From: Rhodospirillaceae bacterium
Lineage (GTDB): Bacteria > Pseudomonadota > Alphaproteobacteria > Rhodospirillales > Rhodospirillaceae
DNA length: 64,000 bases
Assembly (NCBI GenBank): GCA_002737725.1
Contig: NSIP01000003.1
Span: forward strand, 84,501 to 148,500
Direction: 5' to 3'
Shown: positions 10,426-19,361 of the stretch, in pieces
How positions within the stretch are numbered: position 1 is the stretch's first letter
Layout of the letters: each line of letters opens with the position of its first letter
Made by a program: the position numbers and the translations under genes
Notes under the pieces: generated by a model
Seen by the model: only the letters and a program-made list of their open reading frames with translations
Databases searched by the model: none
What the model was told of the DNA's origin: nothing

Positions 10426-11199
10426 TTACTTCCCCTTGCGGGTGAACACGTACATGCGCTCGCTTGAGGATTTGGTGTCGAAAGTATAACCGCCCGTGTC
10501 AAACGCCTTGAGACCTTCGGGCGTTTCGATGCGGTGTTGCACAATGTAGCGCGCCATTTGGCCACGTGCCTTTTTAGCTAAGAAACTCACAATCGTGGCT
10601 TTGCCGTTCTTGATCTCTTTGAACGCGCATTGCATCACGGGGATTTTGAGGGCTTTTGTGTCCACCGCGCTCCAGTATTCCTCGGAAGCTAGATTGACGA
10701 TGGTTGGATTTTTCGCTTTCGCCAGCATTGCGTTGAGGTGCTTGGTCAGGCCTGCGCGCCAAAAGTCATACAAATCTTCACCCTGGTCGGTGTCGACGCT
10801 GGTACCCATTTCCAGGCGATAAGGTTGAATGGTGTCGAGCGGGCGCAACACCCCGTATAACCCAGAGAGAATGCCAACGTGATCTTGAGCGTATTTGATG
10901 TCTGCAAGGGTAAGCGTCTTGGACTCAAAGCCCATGTAAACTTCGCCAGCGAAAGCATAAATGGCGGGCTTGGTCTCGCCGCCATTTTTAAGATCAAAAG
11001 CCCGAAAACGTTCAAAATTCAATGTCGCTAATTTATCGCTGATGCCCATCAGGCGCTTCAAATCGCCGGCAGTATATTTCTTCACGCGCTTGGCCAGGTT
11101 GGTGGTCGCGGCCATGAGTTCTGGCGCTGTGGCCTTCACGCCCGCAGGCGCAGGGCTGAAGTCGAGCCGCTTGGCAGGCGAGAGCAGGGCGTACAACAT
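10426..11199 (-). CDS. yaaA: Peroxide stress protein YaaA (UPF0246)
   Basis: 257 residues, the usual size. It starts with the family signature MLYALLSPAKRLDF and carries GISDKLATLNFERF, AIYAFAGEVYMGF, ILSGLYGVLRPLDTIQPYRLEMG and VNLASEEYW, all typical of YaaA. In E. coli YaaA is OxyR-controlled, limits intracellular free iron during peroxide stress and binds DNA. It is a cytoplasmic single gene, convergent with the peptide-binding protein and divergent from the DUF1330 gene. No OxyR site was identified in the 130-base upstream gap. Confidence 0.95.
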   Translation of the reverse strand: MLYALLSPAKRLDFSPAPAGVKATAPELMAATTNLAKRVKKYTAGDLKRLMGISDKLATLNFERFRAFDLKNGGETKPAIYAFAGEVYMGFESKTLTLADIKYAQDHVGILSGLYGVLRPLDTIQPYRLEMGTSVDTDQGEDLYDFWRAGLTKHLNAMLAKAKNPTIVNLASEEYWSAVDTKALKIPVMQCAFKEIKNGKATIVSFLAKKARGQMARYIVQHRIETPEGLKAFDTGGYTFDTKSSSERMYVFTRKGK

Positions 11200-11329
11200 G
11201 ATGTTTCCAACTTTAGAGGACGATCAGACCGGTATATCATGCCAAGTGACGTTAGGATCAATGCCGCTGCGTTGACTTTCACAGAGCACTGGCTCAAAGC
11301 TGATATTATTCGGCAAGAAAGATCGCACT

Positions 11330-11956
11330 ATGGCTGCTCCGGGCTACCTCCTCGTTTTGGGTCATTCTTTGGATATGGCGAAGATGGCGGCCTACTCGGC
11401 GGCCTTACCTGCCATCTACAAAAAATTTGGCGGCTTTTATTTAGGTATCGGTGGACCACGCCGAGGCGTCGAATTTCTGGAGGGCGGCTGGTTCGATCAT
11501 TCTATGGTGTTGGCACGCTTTGCTGCCAAAGCCGATATTCCTAAATTTTGGCGCTCGCCCGATTACACGCAAGCCAAAGAACTACGTAAAAACGCTGGCA
11601 CCTTTAATGTTTTCGCCATGGCTGGTAACGCGCATGAAGCGCCGCTGGGCCAGCCTTCGTTCATGATTACGATTTTCCGCTCCTTTGATGCGGCAAAAAC
11701 CACTGAACTTCATGCGCAGGAAGACGCTAAGCTGGCCGGTCGTGGCGTGTATCTTATTGCCGCTGCCAAATTTGCCGAGACCGAATGCCTTGAGGGTGAT
11801 TTGCGAGACTTTGATTTCCGCATTACGGCATTTCCCACGCAAGTCTCAGCCACCAGTTACTGGAATGAACCAACCACACTGCAGTGGCGTGAAGAGCGCA
11901 CGAAGGTGGCTGGTGTAAATACATTTCTCGTCTCGGGATTGCTCCGTAAAGCATAA
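11330..11956 (+). CDS. Double DUF1330 domain protein, cytosolic
   Basis: 208 residues holding two DUF1330 ferredoxin-like units: residues about 1-95 (YLLVLGHSLDMAKMAAYSAALPAIY, VEFLEGGWFDHSMVLARF, FWRSPDYTQAKELR) and 105-200 (FMITIFRSFD, ECLEGDLRDFDFRITAFP, SYWNEPTTLQWREER). No signal peptide is visible. The biochemical role of DUF1330 is unknown. Its neighbour at 11986 has the same double architecture plus a signal peptide, so the pair arose by duplication. The stop codon overlaps an ATG, but the next gene's real start is 30 bases further. Confidence 0.85.
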   Translation: MAAPGYLLVLGHSLDMAKMAAYSAALPAIYKKFGGFYLGIGGPRRGVEFLEGGWFDHSMVLARFAAKADIPKFWRSPDYTQAKELRKNAGTFNVFAMAGNAHEAPLGQPSFMITIFRSFDAAKTTELHAQEDAKLAGRGVYLIAAAKFAETECLEGDLRDFDFRITAFPTQVSATSYWNEPTTLQWREERTKVAGVNTFLVSGLLRKA

Positions 11957-11985
11957 TGATTGCTGATTCCAAAAGGATAACCCCT

Positions 11986-12702
11986 ATGATCAAACACATT
12001 GTCGGATTGACGCTAACATTGCTGGCTATGAGTTCGCCGGTTCAGGCGCAACAAGCCGCCGCACCCGACGCACCTCTCCCCGGATATACCTTCGTGATGG
12101 GTAGCACGACCGATCGCGAGGTCCTCGGCAAGTATGCCCGCACGTTGCCTGCCATTTATGAAAAGTATCAAGGTTACTATTTAGCCAGCGGCGGTGTTGG
12201 TCGCGGCGTGCGCGTGCTGGAAGGTGAATTCAAAGACCAGTCCGTCATCCTGGCAAAATTCCCCGCGATGGACGGCCCCAATTCATTCTGGTGGAGCCCC
12301 GAGTACCGCGAAAGTGTCGAGATCCGCAAAGGTGCTGGCACATTCAATGTGCTGAAACTCAAAGGAACACCTGGCGATCTGGACAAGCCCACAGGCAAGC
12401 CCGCCTACCTCATTTCCATTTTCAGCGTTAAAGACCGAACGAAGCTCAAGCCTTATGGCGATGTCGCTGGCCCACTGCTGAAAGTGGCGGGCGGCAAATT
12501 TATTTTAACGGGCGGGCGCAAGGATATCGAATTGTTGGAAGGCGAATTCGGCAACAAGAACGTCAGTATCATTCAGTTTCCATCGCTGGAAGCCTTGCGC
12601 AAATTCTATGACGACCCGGCCTACCAAAAAGTGATCCCGATCCGTCAAAGTGCTGGCGAGTACACCATCCTTGAAATTGATGGCGTCCAAGCCAGTAACT
12701 AA
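11986..12702 (+). CDS. Double DUF1330 domain protein, exported
   Basis: 238 residues. The start at 11986 is preferred over 11956 because AAAGGA lies eight bases upstream and a clear Sec signal follows (MIKHIVGLTLTLLAMSSPVQAQQ). The mature protein has two DUF1330 units, with YARTLPAIYEKYQGYYLASGGVGRGVRVLEG and SVILAKFP in the first and DIELLEGEFGNKNVSIIQFPS and FYDDPAYQKVIPIRQ in the second. It resembles the cytosolic protein just upstream (shared RGVxxLEG, FWxSPxY and AGTFNV). bioM begins 14 bases downstream, so the pair may be co-transcribed with the biotin genes. Confidence 0.85.
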   Translation: MIKHIVGLTLTLLAMSSPVQAQQAAAPDAPLPGYTFVMGSTTDREVLGKYARTLPAIYEKYQGYYLASGGVGRGVRVLEGEFKDQSVILAKFPAMDGPNSFWWSPEYRESVEIRKGAGTFNVLKLKGTPGDLDKPTGKPAYLISIFSVKDRTKLKPYGDVAGPLLKVAGGKFILTGGRKDIELLEGEFGNKNVSIIQFPSLEALRKFYDDPAYQKVIPIRQSAGEYTILEIDGVQASN

Positions 12703-12716
12703 GCCGCTTCAGTCGC

Positions 12717-13394
12717 ATGACGATTACATTTGACCACGTCGCTGTTCGGTTTGGTGATCTTGATGTGCTGCGTAATGTCAGCTTGAGCTTGGCCGAGGGA
12801 CGCGTCGGCGTGATTGGCAACAATGGCTCGGGAAAAAGTACATTTGCGCGGCTGATCAACGGCTTGGTGTTGCCGACGTCAGGCCGTGTCACAGTCGAAG
12901 ACCTTGATACGCGTACACACGGCCAAGAGATCCGCAAGCGTGTCGGTTTTGTGTTCCAAAACCCGGACGCGCAAATCGTGATGCCCACGGTGGCCGAAGA
13001 CGCAGCCTTTGGTCCCCGTGCTCATGGCTTCAGCGGTGACGAGGCCAATGCGCGCGCCGATGCAGCGCTGGCGTTGTTCAATCTCGCACATCTTAAACAT
13101 CGCGCGGCTTTCACGCTGAGCGGCGGCGAAAAACAGTCATTGGCGTTGGCAGGTGTATTGGCGCTTGACCCAGCATGGGTCGTGTTCGACGAGCCCACCA
13201 CCATGTTGGATCGCAACCGTGCCAAGGCTGCGATGACGGTGATTGCAGGGTTGTCGCAACGCGTAATCGTGGTGACGCACCATGTGGAACTGTTGGCGGG
13301 GTTCGAGCGCGTGATTGTGCTCAGCAACGGCGGCGTTGTGTGTGACGACACGCCTGAGCGCGCAATTGCGTACTATGTCGAGACGCTTACATGA
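12717..13394 (+). CDS. bioM: Biotin ECF transporter ATPase BioM
   Basis: 225-residue ABC ATPase of the CbiO/EcfA type. Walker A is GNNGSGKST (about 35-43), the Q-loop is FVFQNPDAQIVMPTV, the signature is LSGGEKQSLALAG, and Walker B is PAWVVFDEPT followed by the switch His in VVTHH. Followed by bioN (4-base ATGA overlap) and bioY, the standard BioMNY set: BioY binds biotin, BioN is the transmembrane coupler and BioM energises uptake. No BioR-like or BirA-like operator was found just upstream. A single ATPase subunit is normal for BioMNY. Confidence 0.93.
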   Translation: MTITFDHVAVRFGDLDVLRNVSLSLAEGRVGVIGNNGSGKSTFARLINGLVLPTSGRVTVEDLDTRTHGQEIRKRVGFVFQNPDAQIVMPTVAEDAAFGPRAHGFSGDEANARADAALALFNLAHLKHRAAFTLSGGEKQSLALAGVLALDPAWVVFDEPTTMLDRNRAKAAMTVIAGLSQRVIVVTHHVELLAGFERVIVLSNGGVVCDDTPERAIAYYVETLT

Positions 13395-13993
13395 TTGCGG
13401 GTGTCTACCAGCCCGGTAACTCATGCTTTCATCGCGCCACGCCGGGGCTGAAACTCGCCGCGTTAGCGATTTATGCGGTGGCGCTCTCGGTGGTTGAGCA
13501 GATTGTATTGTTGATGGGATTGAGCGCGCTGGTTTTGGTTGCATGGCAGATTGCAGGGCTCACCTGGGCGCAATTGAGCGCGAACTTGAAACTATTGATC
13601 TGGATTTTGCTGGCGCTATTTGGGTTTCAGCTCTTCGTCGCAGGATTTTGGCGCGCGTTTGATACGATCCTGACGCTGGCCGCACTGGTTGTGGCCGCCG
13701 CATTGGTCAGCCACACCACACGCACGGATGATATGCTCGATACCCTGACTGCGGCATTTTCACCTTTCGCGCGCTTTGGTGTGAAACCCGAAGATGCCGC
13801 CTTTGTTTTGGTCTTCACTGTGCGCTTAGTGCCGTTTGTCTCGATTGTGGGCCGTGAAGCCATCGACGCGCGCCGCGCGCGAGGGGCCGGGCGCAATCCT
13901 GTGCCCGCGCTGGTGCCCATGGTCATCCGGCTGATGCGCGAAACCGATGCACTGTCCGAGGCTTTGGTTGCGCGCGGGTTCGGGCGGACTTAA
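13391..13993 (+). CDS. bioN: Biotin ECF transporter transmembrane subunit BioN
   Basis: 200 residues, CbiQ/EcfT family. Several hydrophobic helices (LAALAIYAVALSVVEQIVLL, LLIWILLALFGFQLFVAGFW, AALVVAAALV) precede the cytoplasmic coupling segment AIDARRARGAGRNP, which holds the Ala-Arg-Gly-type motif that docks on the ATPase. The ATG overlaps the bioM stop (ATGA), implying coupled translation. Length matches short BioN proteins. bioY begins 11 bases after its stop. Confidence 0.92.
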   Translation: MIAGVYQPGNSCFHRATPGLKLAALAIYAVALSVVEQIVLLMGLSALVLVAWQIAGLTWAQLSANLKLLIWILLALFGFQLFVAGFWRAFDTILTLAALVVAAALVSHTTRTDDMLDTLTAAFSPFARFGVKPEDAAFVLVFTVRLVPFVSIVGREAIDARRARGAGRNPVPALVPMVIRLMRETDALSEALVARGFGRT

Positions 13994-14004
13994 AACCTTT
14001 TCCT

Positions 14005-14553
14005 ATGTCAGTCGCCAGTCAAAACCTCGATGTGAAAGCCCTCGTGCGGTGTGCAATGTTCGCAGCGCTCATTGCTGCGTTGGGGTTGCTGCCGCCCATT
14101 CCCGTGCCCATCATTCCGGTTCCCATCACCGCGCAGACTCTCGGCGTGATGTTGGCAGGTGCTGTGCTGGGCCCCAGACGCGGCGCGTTGGCGGTGATCA
14201 TCTTTCTTGGTGTTGTGCTGCTGGGCTTTCCGCTGCTGTCGGGTGGACGTGGCGGCTTGGGCGTTTTCTTTGGTCCCAGTGCAGGGTTTTTGGTGGGCTG
14301 GGTTGCAGGGGCCTTTTGTGTTGGCCTATTGGCGGCAAAGTCATTGCCGCGCCTGACGGCTGCGTGTCTGGTCGGTGGTATCGGCGCGGTGTATCTCGTG
14401 GGCGTGCCCTGGATGGCGCTTGTGGCCGATATCTCAGTCGCGCAAGCGCTCATCGCATCGGCAGCCTTCTTGCCAGGTGATCTTGTAAAAGCGGTACTGG
14501 CGGCCATTGCCGCACGCGCCATTCAACGCGGCTATCCCTTAGGCACCTCATGA
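14005..14553 (+). CDS. bioY: Biotin ECF transporter substrate-specificity subunit BioY
   Basis: 182 residues, a hydrophobic six-helix protein. Family hallmarks are the proline-rich loop LPPIPVPIIPVPITAQTLGVMLAG, then LGPRRGALAVIIFLGVVLLGFPLLSGGRGGLG and FGPSAGFLVGWVAGAF. It binds biotin with high affinity in the membrane. Its last four bases overlap the ligase start (ATGA), so the downstream ligase and thiolase are in the same translational unit. Confidence 0.95.
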   Translation: MSVASQNLDVKALVRCAMFAALIAALGLLPPIPVPIIPVPITAQTLGVMLAGAVLGPRRGALAVIIFLGVVLLGFPLLSGGRGGLGVFFGPSAGFLVGWVAGAFCVGLLAAKSLPRLTAACLVGGIGAVYLVGVPWMALVADISVAQALIASAAFLPGDLVKAVLAAIAARAIQRGYPLGTS

Positions 14554-15995
14554 CCGCGTCCCTATTTGTATTCGATGGCGTGCTGCAATCCTCGATGCGT
14601 ACGCCCGACAGCCCGGCGATTATTTTTGGCGACGAGACGTTGAACTATGGCGAGTTTGCTTGGCGCATATGCCGTGTGGCCAGTGGCGTCGAAGCCAAGT
14701 CGGCCCAGCGTGTAGCGGCGTCGCTGCCCAATCATCCCGCTCTGCTGGAAATTTTCTTTGGTGCGACATTGGCGGGTGCAGTGTTTGTGTTGCTTGAGCC
14801 GAAATGGCCACAAGAGACATTGGCGGCTGTGTTGCAAGGCCACGCGCCACAGCTCTTTTTTGGCGATGAGAAGGCTGCCCATGTAAACTTGCATGACTAT
14901 GCCGCCTGGCGCGAGAGCCAAGATCCTAATCGAGAGTTATCGATACGGCCCACGCCGCAAAGGCCATTCATGGTCGGATTTACATCGGGCACCACAGGCG
15001 TTCCCAAGGCCTTCATTCGTAACCATGCCTCCTGGACGAATAGTTTTTCCGCCTCGCGCATCGAGTTTGGAATCACCAACAAAATGCATCTTCTTTTGCC
15101 CGGGCCGCTGTCTCATGGGTTGTCACTGTATGCGGCCGTGGAGACGTTGAATGCGGGCGGCAGCGTGACGATTGAGCCTACGTTTGATGCCCAACACATG
15201 ATGCATATCGCCGAAGCCGGGCATGTGAACACCATTGTTGCCGCACCGACATTGCTCGATCTCATGTTGGCTGCCGCACCGGGCGCGAGCATCAGCGCCA
15301 TCACCACGATTATTACAGCGGGCGCAAAATTGTTACCCGGTTTGCGCACGCGGCTGTTGCGCACATTCCCCAACGCGCGCGTCATCGAATACTACGGCGC
15401 GTCGGAGCTTAGTTTTGTCAGCGTCGCGCGCACGGACGAGGGGTGCCCGCCAAACTCTGTCGGCCGTGCCTTCAACGGTGTTGAGATCAAAATTGAAAAA
15501 GACGCAGGCGAGATCGGAACGGTATGGGTCAAGAGCGCCATGATCGCCGCCGTATATGTCGGCCCCACAGACGGCGTGGGTCTGCGCATCAAAGATGGGT
15601 GGGCCACGGTGGGGGATCGAGGCAGTCTTGATGCGAACGGCTTTCTGACGCTGATCGGTCGTGAAGGAGATATGATTATTTCTGGCGGCTTGAATGTCTA
15701 TCCGTCCGAAGTTGAGGCGGTGCTGTCCGCTGTGCCGGGCGTGTCGGAAGTTTGGGTGACGGGTCAATCCGATGATCGCTGGGGCGAAGTGGTGACGGCG
15801 GTTGTGTCGTCGACAGCCACCGCCTCGCTTGATGTGGCAGTACTCAAAAAGGCATGTATCGAGCGACTGGCCCCGCATAAACATCCACGGCGCTGGTTTC
15901 TGATCGACAAATTTGTGCACACGGCCAGCGGCAAAATTGATCGCGCTGATGCCACGGCAAAACTACGCGCCCATACGTTGAAAGTTTTATCGTGA
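14550..15995 (+). CDS. AMP-dependent acyl-CoA ligase in the bioMNY operon (YhfT-like)
   Basis: 481 residues, ANL superfamily. The phosphate-binding loop is VGFTSGTTGVPKAFIRNH, core A5 is EYYGASELSFVSVA, A8 is GREGDMIISGGLNVYPSEVE, and the C-terminal catalytic Lys is in ASGKIDRA. It should activate a carboxylic acid to its CoA thioester. The start overlaps bioY by four bases and its end overlaps the thiolase start. Bacillus yhfU(bioY)-yhfT-yhfS joins the same three functions under biotin control, so a role with a biotin precursor or other acid taken up by or linked to BioY is plausible, but the substrate is unproven. Confidence 0.88.
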   Translation: MTASLFVFDGVLQSSMRTPDSPAIIFGDETLNYGEFAWRICRVASGVEAKSAQRVAASLPNHPALLEIFFGATLAGAVFVLLEPKWPQETLAAVLQGHAPQLFFGDEKAAHVNLHDYAAWRESQDPNRELSIRPTPQRPFMVGFTSGTTGVPKAFIRNHASWTNSFSASRIEFGITNKMHLLLPGPLSHGLSLYAAVETLNAGGSVTIEPTFDAQHMMHIAEAGHVNTIVAAPTLLDLMLAAAPGASISAITTIITAGAKLLPGLRTRLLRTFPNARVIEYYGASELSFVSVARTDEGCPPNSVGRAFNGVEIKIEKDAGEIGTVWVKSAMIAAVYVGPTDGVGLRIKDGWATVGDRGSLDANGFLTLIGREGDMIISGGLNVYPSEVEAVLSAVPGVSEVWVTGQSDDRWGEVVTAVVSSTATASLDVAVLKKACIERLAPHKHPRRWFLIDKFVHTASGKIDRADATAKLRAHTLKVLS

Positions 15996-17137
15996 GCGCG
16001 GTTATTATTGCCGCAAGGCGCACACCCATCGGCAAAGTGCGCGGGTCTCTGCGTCGATGTCGGGTCGAAGAGTTGGCTGCACCCGTTTTTCAAGCGTTGC
16101 TGGCCGATGCGAAATTGCAAGCCCACCAGATCGATGATGTGATTTTGGGCAACGCCGCCGGGCCCGGTGGTAATGTGGCGCGGCTCTCGGCGTTGCAGGC
16201 TGGTTTTCCAGTGAGCGTGCCGGGCGTCACAGTTGATCGCCAGTGTGGCTCGGGGCTTGAGGCCATCAACATCGCTGCGCGATTGATCGAGGCCGGGGCA
16301 GGGGAGATTTACATCGCTGGTGGCGTGGAAAGCACCTCCACCGCGCCCTTGCGCTATGAGACGGCTGAGGGCGGTGAGTCGCCGAAGCCATTTACCCGCG
16401 CGCGCTTCTCACCTGACTTTGTCGGCGACCCTGAGATGGGCGCGGCGGCGGAGAACGTGGCGCGTGCATTTAAAATATCCCGCGCGCGCCAGGACTCATT
16501 TGCATTGCGTAGTCATCAAAAAGCGATTGCGGCCATCAGTGCTGGGCATTTCAACGCCGAGATTGTGCCGATACAAGGCGTTGATGCTGCGATGAGCCGC
16601 GACGAATGCCCGCGCGCCGACACGAGACTCGAGAAACTTTCTGCTCTCGTGCCGGTTTTCGCAACTGATGGCACCGTTACGGCGGGCAATGCCTGCCCCA
16701 TCAACGACGGCGCGGCTGCGGTGCTGATGATGTCAGCAGCCAAAGCCAAGCAGCTGGGTTTTGAGGACTGCTTGAAGGTGGCAGACTCTGCGGTCGCGGG
16801 CGTCGATCCCAATATGCTGGGCACTGGGCCTGTGCCTGCGGTTCAGAAGTTATTGAAACGCACGGGATTCACGTTGGCCGATATTGATGTGGTGGAATTC
16901 AACGAGGCCTTTGCCGCGCAAGTGTTGGCCTGTTGTGATGAGCTTGGAATTTTAGAAGAGCAGCTCAATATCGGCGGCGGCGCCATTGCGCTGGGCCATC
17001 CTTACGGCGCATCTGGCGCGATTTTAGTAGTGCGCCTGTTCACCGAACTCGTGCGTCGCGATGGCGGCACGCGCGGTTTGGCCACGCTGGGCATCGGCGG
17101 CGGCATGGGCTTGGCGACATTGTTTGAGAGAACATAA
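15992..17137 (+). CDS. Thiolase family protein lacking the second catalytic Cys (YhfS-like)
   Basis: 381 residues, near the normal thiolase length. Start GTG overlaps the ligase stop (GTGA). The nucleophilic cysteine is present in VDRQCGSGLEA (Cys85), as are NEAFAAQV and the GHPYGASGA motif (His336). The C-terminal motif, usually CxGGG, reads LATLGIGGGMG: the residue is Gly367 (codon GGC), so the general-acid/base cysteine is absent while the surrounding motif is intact. Classical thiolases need that Cys for Claisen chemistry. The protein may do acyl transfer or another reaction, or be impaired. It terminates the bioMNY-ligase-thiolase operon. Confidence 0.88.
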   Translation: MSAVIIAARRTPIGKVRGSLRRCRVEELAAPVFQALLADAKLQAHQIDDVILGNAAGPGGNVARLSALQAGFPVSVPGVTVDRQCGSGLEAINIAARLIEAGAGEIYIAGGVESTSTAPLRYETAEGGESPKPFTRARFSPDFVGDPEMGAAAENVARAFKISRARQDSFALRSHQKAIAAISAGHFNAEIVPIQGVDAAMSRDECPRADTRLEKLSALVPVFATDGTVTAGNACPINDGAAAVLMMSAAKAKQLGFEDCLKVADSAVAGVDPNMLGTGPVPAVQKLLKRTGFTLADIDVVEFNEAFAAQVLACCDELGILEEQLNIGGGAIALGHPYGASGAILVVRLFTELVRRDGGTRGLATLGIGGGMGLATLFERT

Positions 17138-17140
17138 CTG

Positions 17141-17170
17141 TCATGCCCCGAATTGTTCGGGGCATCCAGG
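17141..17170. repeat. REP-like palindrome, copy 1
   Basis: ATGCCCCGAA at 17143-17152 is perfectly inverted at 17156-17165 with a TTG loop, within a GTCAT...ATCCA-type frame (here TGTCAT...ATCCAG). It lies just past the thiolase stop and may act as a transcript 3' end. Two other intergenic elements in the window share this frame (24430, 40664). Confidence 0.6.
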
Positions 17171-17274: not shown

Positions 17275-19278
17275 TTAGAATGTGGTTCGGATCGTAAACC
17301 GGACATCACGACCAGGCAAAACCACCTCGTCTTTGTTAAAGGCGACAGCGCTCCGTTCCATTGTGTTGGTGAGGTTGCGCCCGACCACACTGAACTCAAG
17401 ATCGGGCTGTTGCGTCCAGGGCTTGAAACTGATGCGGGCATCAAGCGACGAGTAACCCTCGGTTGGCGTTTCGCCCGCAGACGTTTTCGTTTGTTTTCCA
17501 CTATAGCGCCACTGTACGCCTCCGTTGAGAATATCACTGGTCCAGCTTAGGCCTGCCCCGACATGATAGGGCGGAATACGCGGCACGTTTCCTGCTCCAG
17601 AAAGTGTGGCCCGCACAACATCGGCCAAGACATCCAGCGAGAGTGCTCCTTCGGGGGCTTTGATCAATGCGAAAGCCGCTTTGCCTTCGAGCCCGCGAAA
17701 TTTCGCTTTACGTTGCTCGTAAACCAACTCACGCAAATCGTTGCCATCACCAACAATGCAATCACCTTCTTCATCGCACGTCCGCCCTGTCAAACGTCCG
17801 TAAATAAAGTTATCGAAGTGCGCTGCCCAAGCTGTGCCCTCAAAAGTGATATGCGGTAGGTTCATGCGCATCGTGCCTTCCACCGAATTGGAACGCTCGA
17901 TTCGCAAGTTGGGATTGCCCAGTTCAAATGTCTGGGGGCCGTCATGGGGGCCGCGTGCGAATAGTTCGGTTTGTCCCGGTGCGCGCGCCGCGCTTGATAG
18001 CGTGATACCAAAGGTCCATTCGTCAGTCGGCGACAGCACCAGCCCCGCCGACCCGCTCACAGGCGTGAACTTGCGTTGCACATCCACGTTACTCAGTGGC
18101 GTGCCTTTCGTATCCACATGCTCCACGCGTGCGCCCATTTGCAGTTTCAACAGATCCGAAAGCGGTGCTTCGGCAAAGGTAAACGCGGCCATCGACTGCG
18201 TTGTCGTGGGGAGCAGAAAGTCTTCGCCTTCTCCTAATGCGGTGAACTTGCGATGCTGGGCTTGCACGCCAACAGCACCCGCAGAGAGGACGTCGTTCGG
18301 GGCGAGCAAGGCTTCAGCGCGGCTATCCCACTCCTTGTCGGTAAAGGTCGATAAAATCGCGTTCGCCGCATCTTTTTCGCTATGGCTATAGTCGGCATAG
18401 CCTGCGTCGATATTGAGTGCATTGATCAGGCCGCTTTCGAAGGTGATGGCCGAACGCGCCAATCCCTTCGTCTGTGTCATGTCGATGTATGAGTTTTCAG
18501 CCGGTATGCCGTAGCGCGCACTATAGCGTACGATAGCACCCCCCGTTTTGGCCTCCTCGCCGATATAAGCCGTTCCAAACGAAAGGCCCTCACCGCGAAA
18601 GAACGAATTGGATTGAGTCCCGCCGGGGATATTGTAATCGCCCGTGTGCCGCCCAAACCCGTCGGCGTGAAACGCGAGTTTGTCGGAACGGGCATCGACC
18701 ATCGCAGCGCCCTCATACAAATCCGATCCGGTTGCGAAAGTTCCCGACGCCTCACCTGAGATTGGCTTATCAAGCGTCGCAAACGGCACGCGATTGTTGA
18801 TGGCATTTACCACGCCGCCGATAGCCTGGCTGCCATAGCGCAATGTTGCGGCCCCACGCACGACCTCAATCTCTTGGGTTGAAAGTGGATCAATAGGTGT
18901 GCCGTGGTCGGGTCCAACATCGGCGACATCAAAGCTGCCAATGCCATTCTCCATCACCTTGACGCGGCTGGCATCGAAGCCCCGTATGATTGGGCGGCTT
19001 GCGCCTGCCGCAAAGCTTGATCCTGTCACACCTGGAATATTGGCCAGTGCTTCGGCCAGGTTGGAGCCGCCGTTACGCAAAATCTCAATTCGGTTGACTT
19101 GACCAACAATGGTCGCAAGCTTGTCTGGATTGCTGGAATACGGTGTTGCGGTCACAACAATCTCTTCAATTTTAGCGGGCAGGTCTGTATCGCTCGCATG
19201 AGCTGTATGGACGATAAAAATGCATGGCAGCAGGAAGGCGCGCGCCATAGAGGCGCGGCCTATTTTGCGGTATGGCAT
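17275..19278 (-). CDS. ZnuD-like TonB-dependent receptor (probable zinc receptor)
   Basis: 667 residues from the ATG at 19278, chosen because GGAGAG precedes it and a signal peptide follows (MARAFLLPCIFIVHTAHAS); the frame is open to 19332. The TonB box/plug begins IEEIVVTATPYSS. The plug segments SFDVADVGPDHGTPIDPLS and VEVVRGAATLRYGSQAIGGVVNAINNRVP-type blocks match the ZnuD family of zinc receptors, as does a loop with a Cys pair (TCDEEGDC). The barrel ends in Phe. A DUF2946-like gene lies 83 bases upstream on the same strand. No Zur palindrome was seen near this gene, unlike znuA, so the zinc assignment rests on similarity recalled from the family. Confidence 0.8.
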   Translation of the reverse strand: MPYRKIGRASMARAFLLPCIFIVHTAHASDTDLPAKIEEIVVTATPYSSNPDKLATIVGQVNRIEILRNGGSNLAEALANIPGVTGSSFAAGASRPIIRGFDASRVKVMENGIGSFDVADVGPDHGTPIDPLSTQEIEVVRGAATLRYGSQAIGGVVNAINNRVPFATLDKPISGEASGTFATGSDLYEGAAMVDARSDKLAFHADGFGRHTGDYNIPGGTQSNSFFRGEGLSFGTAYIGEEAKTGGAIVRYSARYGIPAENSYIDMTQTKGLARSAITFESGLINALNIDAGYADYSHSEKDAANAILSTFTDKEWDSRAEALLAPNDVLSAGAVGVQAQHRKFTALGEGEDFLLPTTTQSMAAFTFAEAPLSDLLKLQMGARVEHVDTKGTPLSNVDVQRKFTPVSGSAGLVLSPTDEWTFGITLSSAARAPGQTELFARGPHDGPQTFELGNPNLRIERSNSVEGTMRMNLPHITFEGTAWAAHFDNFIYGRLTGRTCDEEGDCIVGDGNDLRELVYEQRKAKFRGLEGKAAFALIKAPEGALSLDVLADVVRATLSGAGNVPRIPPYHVGAGLSWTSDILNGGVQWRYSGKQTKTSAGETPTEGYSSLDARISFKPWTQQPDLEFSVVGRNLTNTMERSAVAFNKDEVVLPGRDVRFTIRTTF

Positions 19279-19361
19279 TGACTTCTCTCCGGACTCGAAT
19301 GGAATAGGCCGCGACCTCTTGCAAATCAGCATGCAAGAGAAGTCACGGCATCATGATGTTT

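Follow-up and report, generated by a model that had tools for sequence, protein, structure and literature searches.

The window analysed in this study is a stretch of 64,000 nucleotides from a Rhodospirillaceae bacterium, and it carries an operon on the forward strand in which EcfA, EcfT, BioY, an acyl-CoA ligase and a thiolase-like enzyme are co-directional, with 4-base overlaps at three of the four joints. EcfA (12717..13394), the ABC ATPase of an ECF biotin transporter, was identified by Pfam ABC_tran and by a gene order that is the same in relatives, and it overlaps by 4 bases with EcfT (13391..13993), the transmembrane T component, which matched Pfam CbiQ. BioY (14005..14553), the biotin-specific S component (Pfam BioY, 8.8e-39), overlaps by 4 bases with an AMP-forming acyl-CoA ligase (14550..15995), which was recognized by Pfam AMP-binding and AMP-binding_C and by NCBIfam, where its best match was NF005797 (PRK07638) at 343.7 bits, below the cut-off of 518. 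The last gene (15992..17137) starts with GTG, overlaps the ligase gene by 4 bases and encodes a Gly-type thiolase-like enzyme, assigned by Pfam, NCBIfam and alignment.

Several further features surround the operon. Two DUF1330 genes (11330-11956 and 11956-12702, in the region 10426-12702) end 14 bases 5' of EcfA; the pair recurs before the operon in three relatives (L088, L089 and L092), at least one DUF1330 gene does so in L090, and a presumably YaaA-like gene lies nearby. A perfect inverted repeat (arms of 10 bases, loop of 3 bases) was read from the sequence at 17143..17165, just past the thiolase stop, and as a terminator it is only possible, since no T-run follows it. A TonB-dependent receptor gene (17275-19332) on the reverse strand is convergent with the thiolase gene, and a 67% homologue of it lies near the operon in L090. 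With the operator patterns used, no exact BioR or BirA match was found in 10-20 kb of the window, and no BioR match with one mismatch was found upstream of the operon. The pattern TTATCKATAA, with at most one mismatch, occurred nine times in the whole window against 2.25 expected, never before the operon, and eight of the nine occurrences were the same four places counted on both strands.

The open reading frame at 15992-17137 was translated into 381 amino acids with a single terminal stop. Pfam Thiolase_N and Thiolase_C (249.6 and 136.1 bits) and TIGR01930 (438.2 bits, above its cut-off of 240.55) covered nearly the full length of the protein. Translation and codons bore out the earlier note, which had read GIGGG in place of the thiolase CxGGG with the other catalytic motifs intact: the nucleophile Cys85 is encoded by TGT (16244..16246), N304-E305-A306-F307 and G335-H336-P337 are both in place, with the codons of Asn304 at 16901..16903 and of His336 at 16997..16999, and Gly367, encoded by GGC (17090..17092), occupies the site of the CxG cysteine. 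The profile score, the nucleophile cysteine, NEAF and GHP thus place the protein in the thiolase family, and the CxG cysteine, described as the acid/base of classical thiolases (PMC3406046, PMC6790690), is absent. Three further full-length thiolases of the source genome all carry CIGGG, and two partial matches were found besides.

Relatives were gathered from genome contigs (7 loci), 289 class genomes, 61 relatives, 398 phylum genomes and plasmids, and from 199 genomes of the Rhizobiaceae-type family of G381. After removal of duplicates, the alignment held 98 sequences, namely 34 with Gly at the CxG site (G-type, the window's own included), 63 with Cys (C-type, a set of high-scoring hits and not a random sample) and one with Ser (S-type, L094). 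The CxG site was therefore Gly in 34/34 members of a distinct clade and Cys in 63/63 other thiolases. All clade members but one frameshifted fragment kept Cys85 (33 of 34), and Asn304 and His336 were kept in all members of both groups. A second change had escaped the earlier note. Position 235, in the motif GN[AS]CPxND of the pantetheine loop (codon TGC, 16694..16696), was Cys in 34/34 G-type sequences, and Ser in 62 and Pro in one of the 63 C-type sequences; Cys235 was likewise present in L094. Also fixed in the G-type were Cys206 (codon TGC, 16607..16609; 3/63 in the C-type), Pro236 (5/63) and F303 (1/63), and R136, P141, P147, D265 and R348 were each found in 34/34 G-type and 0/63 C-type sequences. 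Position 148 was His in 48/63 of the C-type and Asp, Glu or Ser in the G-type. The earlier statement that all neighbours of the lost cysteine are preserved is thus incomplete, as Cys235 was gained, the usual His148 was lost and several Arg and Pro residues were changed along with the glycine.

The G-type members are 43-96% identical in pairs, and the retention of Gly367 and Cys235 across this range gives both residues evidential weight. In a tree of 87 sequences, 23 G-type sequences and L094 formed one clade with a support of 100/100 and a long stem (0.63); the place of L094 within it is unsure because its branch is long. Since all members belong to one clade, Gly367 and Cys235 may have changed in a single past event, and possibly for unrelated reasons. 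A gap in score separates the clade from other thiolases: with the clade profile A2, 4 of the 398 phylum genomes (source genome included) gave at least 603 bits, the next best match being 385.6 bits, and 12 of the 199 Rhizobiaceae-type genomes carried the gene at a threshold of E 1e-140. Sources of the G-type include Rhodospirillaceae MAGs, Azospirillum, Rhizobium, Shinella, Sinorhizobium, Bartonella and one actinomycete plasmid (Streptantibioticus). In one scan of viral contigs, the only relative was L058, a C-type sequence. In Rhizobium sp. C104, the thiolase gene (L105:2489-3738) is split across two frames.

At the equivalog level, the window protein matched best to NF005212 (PRK06690), an acetyl-CoA C-acyltransferase family that we take to be a Bacillus family, at 436.8 bits, under the family cut-off of 498. 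Of 14 control genomes, five, including B. subtilis, gave a match to NF005212, and in one of them it exceeded the cut-off. The residues favoured by this profile were probed by scoring single-residue variants of the window protein, not member sequences, against it. Replacement of Gly367 by Cys, Ala or Ser gave 433.6, 433.5 and 433.7 bits, and replacement of Cys235 by Ser or Ala gave 433.6 and 433.1; because variants at both positions score lower than the wild type, NF005212 prefers Gly367 and Cys235. Ala at E90, R136, R138, P141, P147 or R348 lowered the score by 2.5 to 4.2 bits, and the positive control C85A cost 5.0. The likeness to the clade is incomplete: Ala at R121, D265 or F303 cost less than 1 bit, and the residues found here at 206 and 236 were not preferred, since His or Ala in place of Cys206 gave 436.9 or 437.6 and Gly in place of Pro236 gave 439.5. 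Against TIGR01930, Gly367Cys gained 5.4 bits, as expected, and Cys235Ser gave no gain (437.8 against 438.2, a change of -0.4). These scores suggest that the NF005212 family shares the preference for Gly367 and Cys235.

An acyl-CoA ligase gene lies upstream of the thiolase gene in all 33 G-type loci that could be assessed (the L048 locus is cut), usually with EcfA-EcfT-BioY upstream of both. BioY adjoins 22 of the 34 G-type genes, as well as L094; it was not found in the fetched stretch of nine loci (three Bartonella and six Rhizobium-type), and three further contigs are cut. None of the 23 thiolases next to bioY carries Cys at the CxG site (22 Gly and one Ser), so the outcome that the earlier note had named as refuting its reading did not arise. 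Neither BioY nor EcfA was found at 62 loci of the 63 C-type thiolases, for most of which the flank was about 1.5 kb only. In the divergent clade member L094 (L094:6914-8656), the CxG site is Ser and Cys235 is present; it directly adjoins BioY, and no ligase gene was found beside it. In one S. meliloti pSymB (L054:3487-4978), the ligase, which matched as two pieces and is missing from the gene table, may be broken. These observations indicate that the window gene is a member of a distinct old thiolase subfamily linked to an acyl-CoA ligase and in most cases also to BioY.

The biotin status of the genomes carrying the gene was then compared. In the source genome, which is 98.33% complete, bioB had no match at E 1e-30, and neither bioA (best 155.3 bits against 405) nor bioF (best 308.7 bits against 426.45) was found over its cut-off; a role in de novo biotin synthesis, such as pimelate supply, was therefore rejected for the source organism. 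bioB was present in 0/13 genomes with the gene, among them that of L094, and in 8/13 comparison genomes hand-picked from gene-lacking relatives, with a Fisher p of 0.0016 that is overstated because the genomes are related. The Rhizobiaceae sample showed no such association (bioB in 4/12 genomes with the gene vs 33/187 without it, p 0.24), and a strict tie to biotin auxotrophy was dropped. When both samples were pooled, four of the 23 distinct genomes carrying the gene had bioB. In most of these genomes the gene therefore has no part in de novo synthesis, yet it also occurs outside auxotrophs. R. etli CFN42 and R. phaseoli CIAT652 are reported to recover growth when given biotin or biotin-synthesis genes (PMC8914248). 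A G-type gene (L051) is present on a plasmid of R. etli CIAT 652, and a plasmid of R. etli CFN 42 carries a close relative, matched by similarity.

A link to biotin is also described in Bacillota. In S. aureus, BirA with biotin controls bioY as well as the operon yhfT-yhfS, which it represses and whose product names correspond to a ligase and a thiolase (PMC7235819, PMC6391492); the same BirA control is stated for B. subtilis in a review (PMC11089781). YhfS of the BirA regulon is probably a member of NF005212 / PRK06690, with which the window shares a further likeness in that the ligase upstream of its thiolase best matches NF005797. If the paired signature extends to the yhfT-yhfS pair, as the profile scores suggest, its thiolase would be unlikely to be an ordinary acetyl-CoA acetyltransferase.

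Considering all the above results, we tentatively favour the view that the clade is an old thiolase subfamily that would form an acyl-enzyme on Cys85, may have abandoned the CxG acid/base chemistry and may act in the acquisition of biotin or its vitamers. The acyl-enzyme is supported by the retention of Cys85 together with Asn304 and His336, the latter two being oxyanion residues. In the process that we propose, the ligase would make an acyl-CoA and Cys85 would accept the acyl group and hand it on to another acceptor with no need for the CxG proton transfer of classical thiolases, possibly with help from Cys235. The net reaction would be an acyl transfer or another reaction needing no CxG base, and the neighbourhood points to a role in acquiring or interconverting biotin, or else a related acid, rather than in de novo synthesis here. 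The earlier note had suggested a changed reaction, perhaps acyl transfer only. This reading was partly supported. A changed reaction is plausible, because Gly367 is fixed in a distinct, bioY-linked clade and no bioY-adjacent Cys-type thiolase was found; acyl transfer only is one possibility among others. The clade has also gained Cys235, for which roles as a new acid/base, relay thiol, redox partner or binding residue are all conceivable, and the family may perform unusual chemistry. The present work names two residues to mutate, and it may lead to a catalytic cysteine that has moved or to a new acyl transfer step in vitamin acquisition.

It is possible, if rather unlikely, that the acid/base has been relocated, in which case thiolysis or Claisen condensation would be retained and Cys235 of the pantetheine loop would replace the CxG cysteine. 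The loss at 367 and the gain at 235 coincide in all 34 members, Cys235 accompanies Ser367 in L094, NF005212 prefers Gly367 and Cys235 but not Cys206, and SCP2-thiolases offer a precedent (PMC7682436). The geometry argues against such a takeover. In MasL, a polyyne is reported to be attached to the nucleophile at C16 while its C6-OH is contacted by Pro249 of the pantetheine loop (PMC9098870); from these contacts we estimate that the loop lies about 13 angstrom along the tunnel, which is too far unless the loop is shifted. The absence of a preference for Ser over Cys at 235 in TIGR01930 also speaks against it. An AlphaFold2 model built from 8 sequences, with a mean pLDDT of 36.8, was too poor to locate Cys235. 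Owing to the MasL loop geometry, we place more weight on the CxG base being dispensable than on its takeover by Cys235. Should relocation nevertheless apply, which we hold to be the less probable case, it would represent a third thiolase acid/base solution, in a biotin-acquiring subfamily of Alphaproteobacteria, an actinomycete and, by profile, probably Bacillota.

A decarboxylative condensation, as in ketoacyl-ACP synthases, seems improbable. The CxG cysteine would then be superfluous, because a malonyl-type donor needs no proton abstraction, and the retained Cys85, Asn304 and His336 would suit such a reaction. The thiolase-fold protein TbSLP is described as decarboxylating malonyl-CoA very slowly (PMC12329534), and a 4HBT thioesterase gene and an MDR oxidoreductase gene, as a chain-building module might have, were found in the fetched stretch of 18 of the 34 loci (the two query source loci included). 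However, the window operon shows neither of these two genes, malonyl or ACP genes were likewise not noted next to the thiolase gene, and the Pfam ketoacyl-synt match of the window protein was weak (20.4 bits, below the cut-off).

We likewise consider it doubtful that Cys235 is a redox partner of Cys85, forming a disulfide switch, or a mere binding residue, in a slow or regulatory thiolase. The thiolase of C. acetobutylicum is reported to be switched by a disulfide between its catalytic cysteines, and type I thiolases to use a cysteine from another domain (PMC4595758), but this reading leaves the constant loss of the CxG cysteine unexplained. Finally, a sequencing error, chance or a decaying gene can practically be dismissed as the source of Gly367: GGC and TGC differ by one base and one relative (L105) is frameshifted, but Gly in 34/34 members from many genomes, against Cys in 63/63 other thiolases, with frames that are nearly all open, refutes it.

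Several thiolase-fold systems can be compared with the clade. The fold domains, the nucleophile cysteine, NEAF and GHP are common to the clade and the TIGR01930 thiolases (PhaA, FadA and PcaF), from which it differs by Gly in place of the CxG cysteine, Cys235 in place of Ser and the lack of His148. By motif, Cys235 takes the place of Ser284 of human T2, a residue described as belonging to the pantetheine-binding loop and lining the CoA tunnel (PMC6790690). SCP2-thiolases also lack CxGGGxG, and a cysteine elsewhere, that of HDCF, is thought to serve instead (PMC7682436); HDCF replaces NEAF there, whereas the window protein has NEAF, Asn304 and Glu305 are kept in 34/34 clade members and the extra cysteine lies in the pantetheine loop. 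The CxG cysteine is replaced in TLP1 too (NGG; PMC3406046), but TLP1 also lacks the CxS, NEAF and GHP motifs, all of which are kept in the window protein. The steroid aldolases Sal and Ltp2, likened here by description, show a thiolase fold with repurposed catalytic residues (PMC12329534), with other residues (YDCY/YDHF) and another reaction.

As for the loss of the cysteine itself, Cys378 of the Zoogloea enzyme was reportedly changed to Gly in a mutational study. The PcaF double mutant H356A-C386A is reported to have 5% of the native activity (PMC7337054), and by analogy a thiolase lacking the CxG cysteine may keep some activity, a point against the view favoured here. In the open-licence literature, neither a Gly-type CxG thiolase nor the mechanism of YhfS was found to be the subject of a paper, and the paired Gly367/Cys235 signature was not found in print. 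Annotation and work on the BirA regulon have already described the family and its neighbours, and it is the paired signature that appears to be new.
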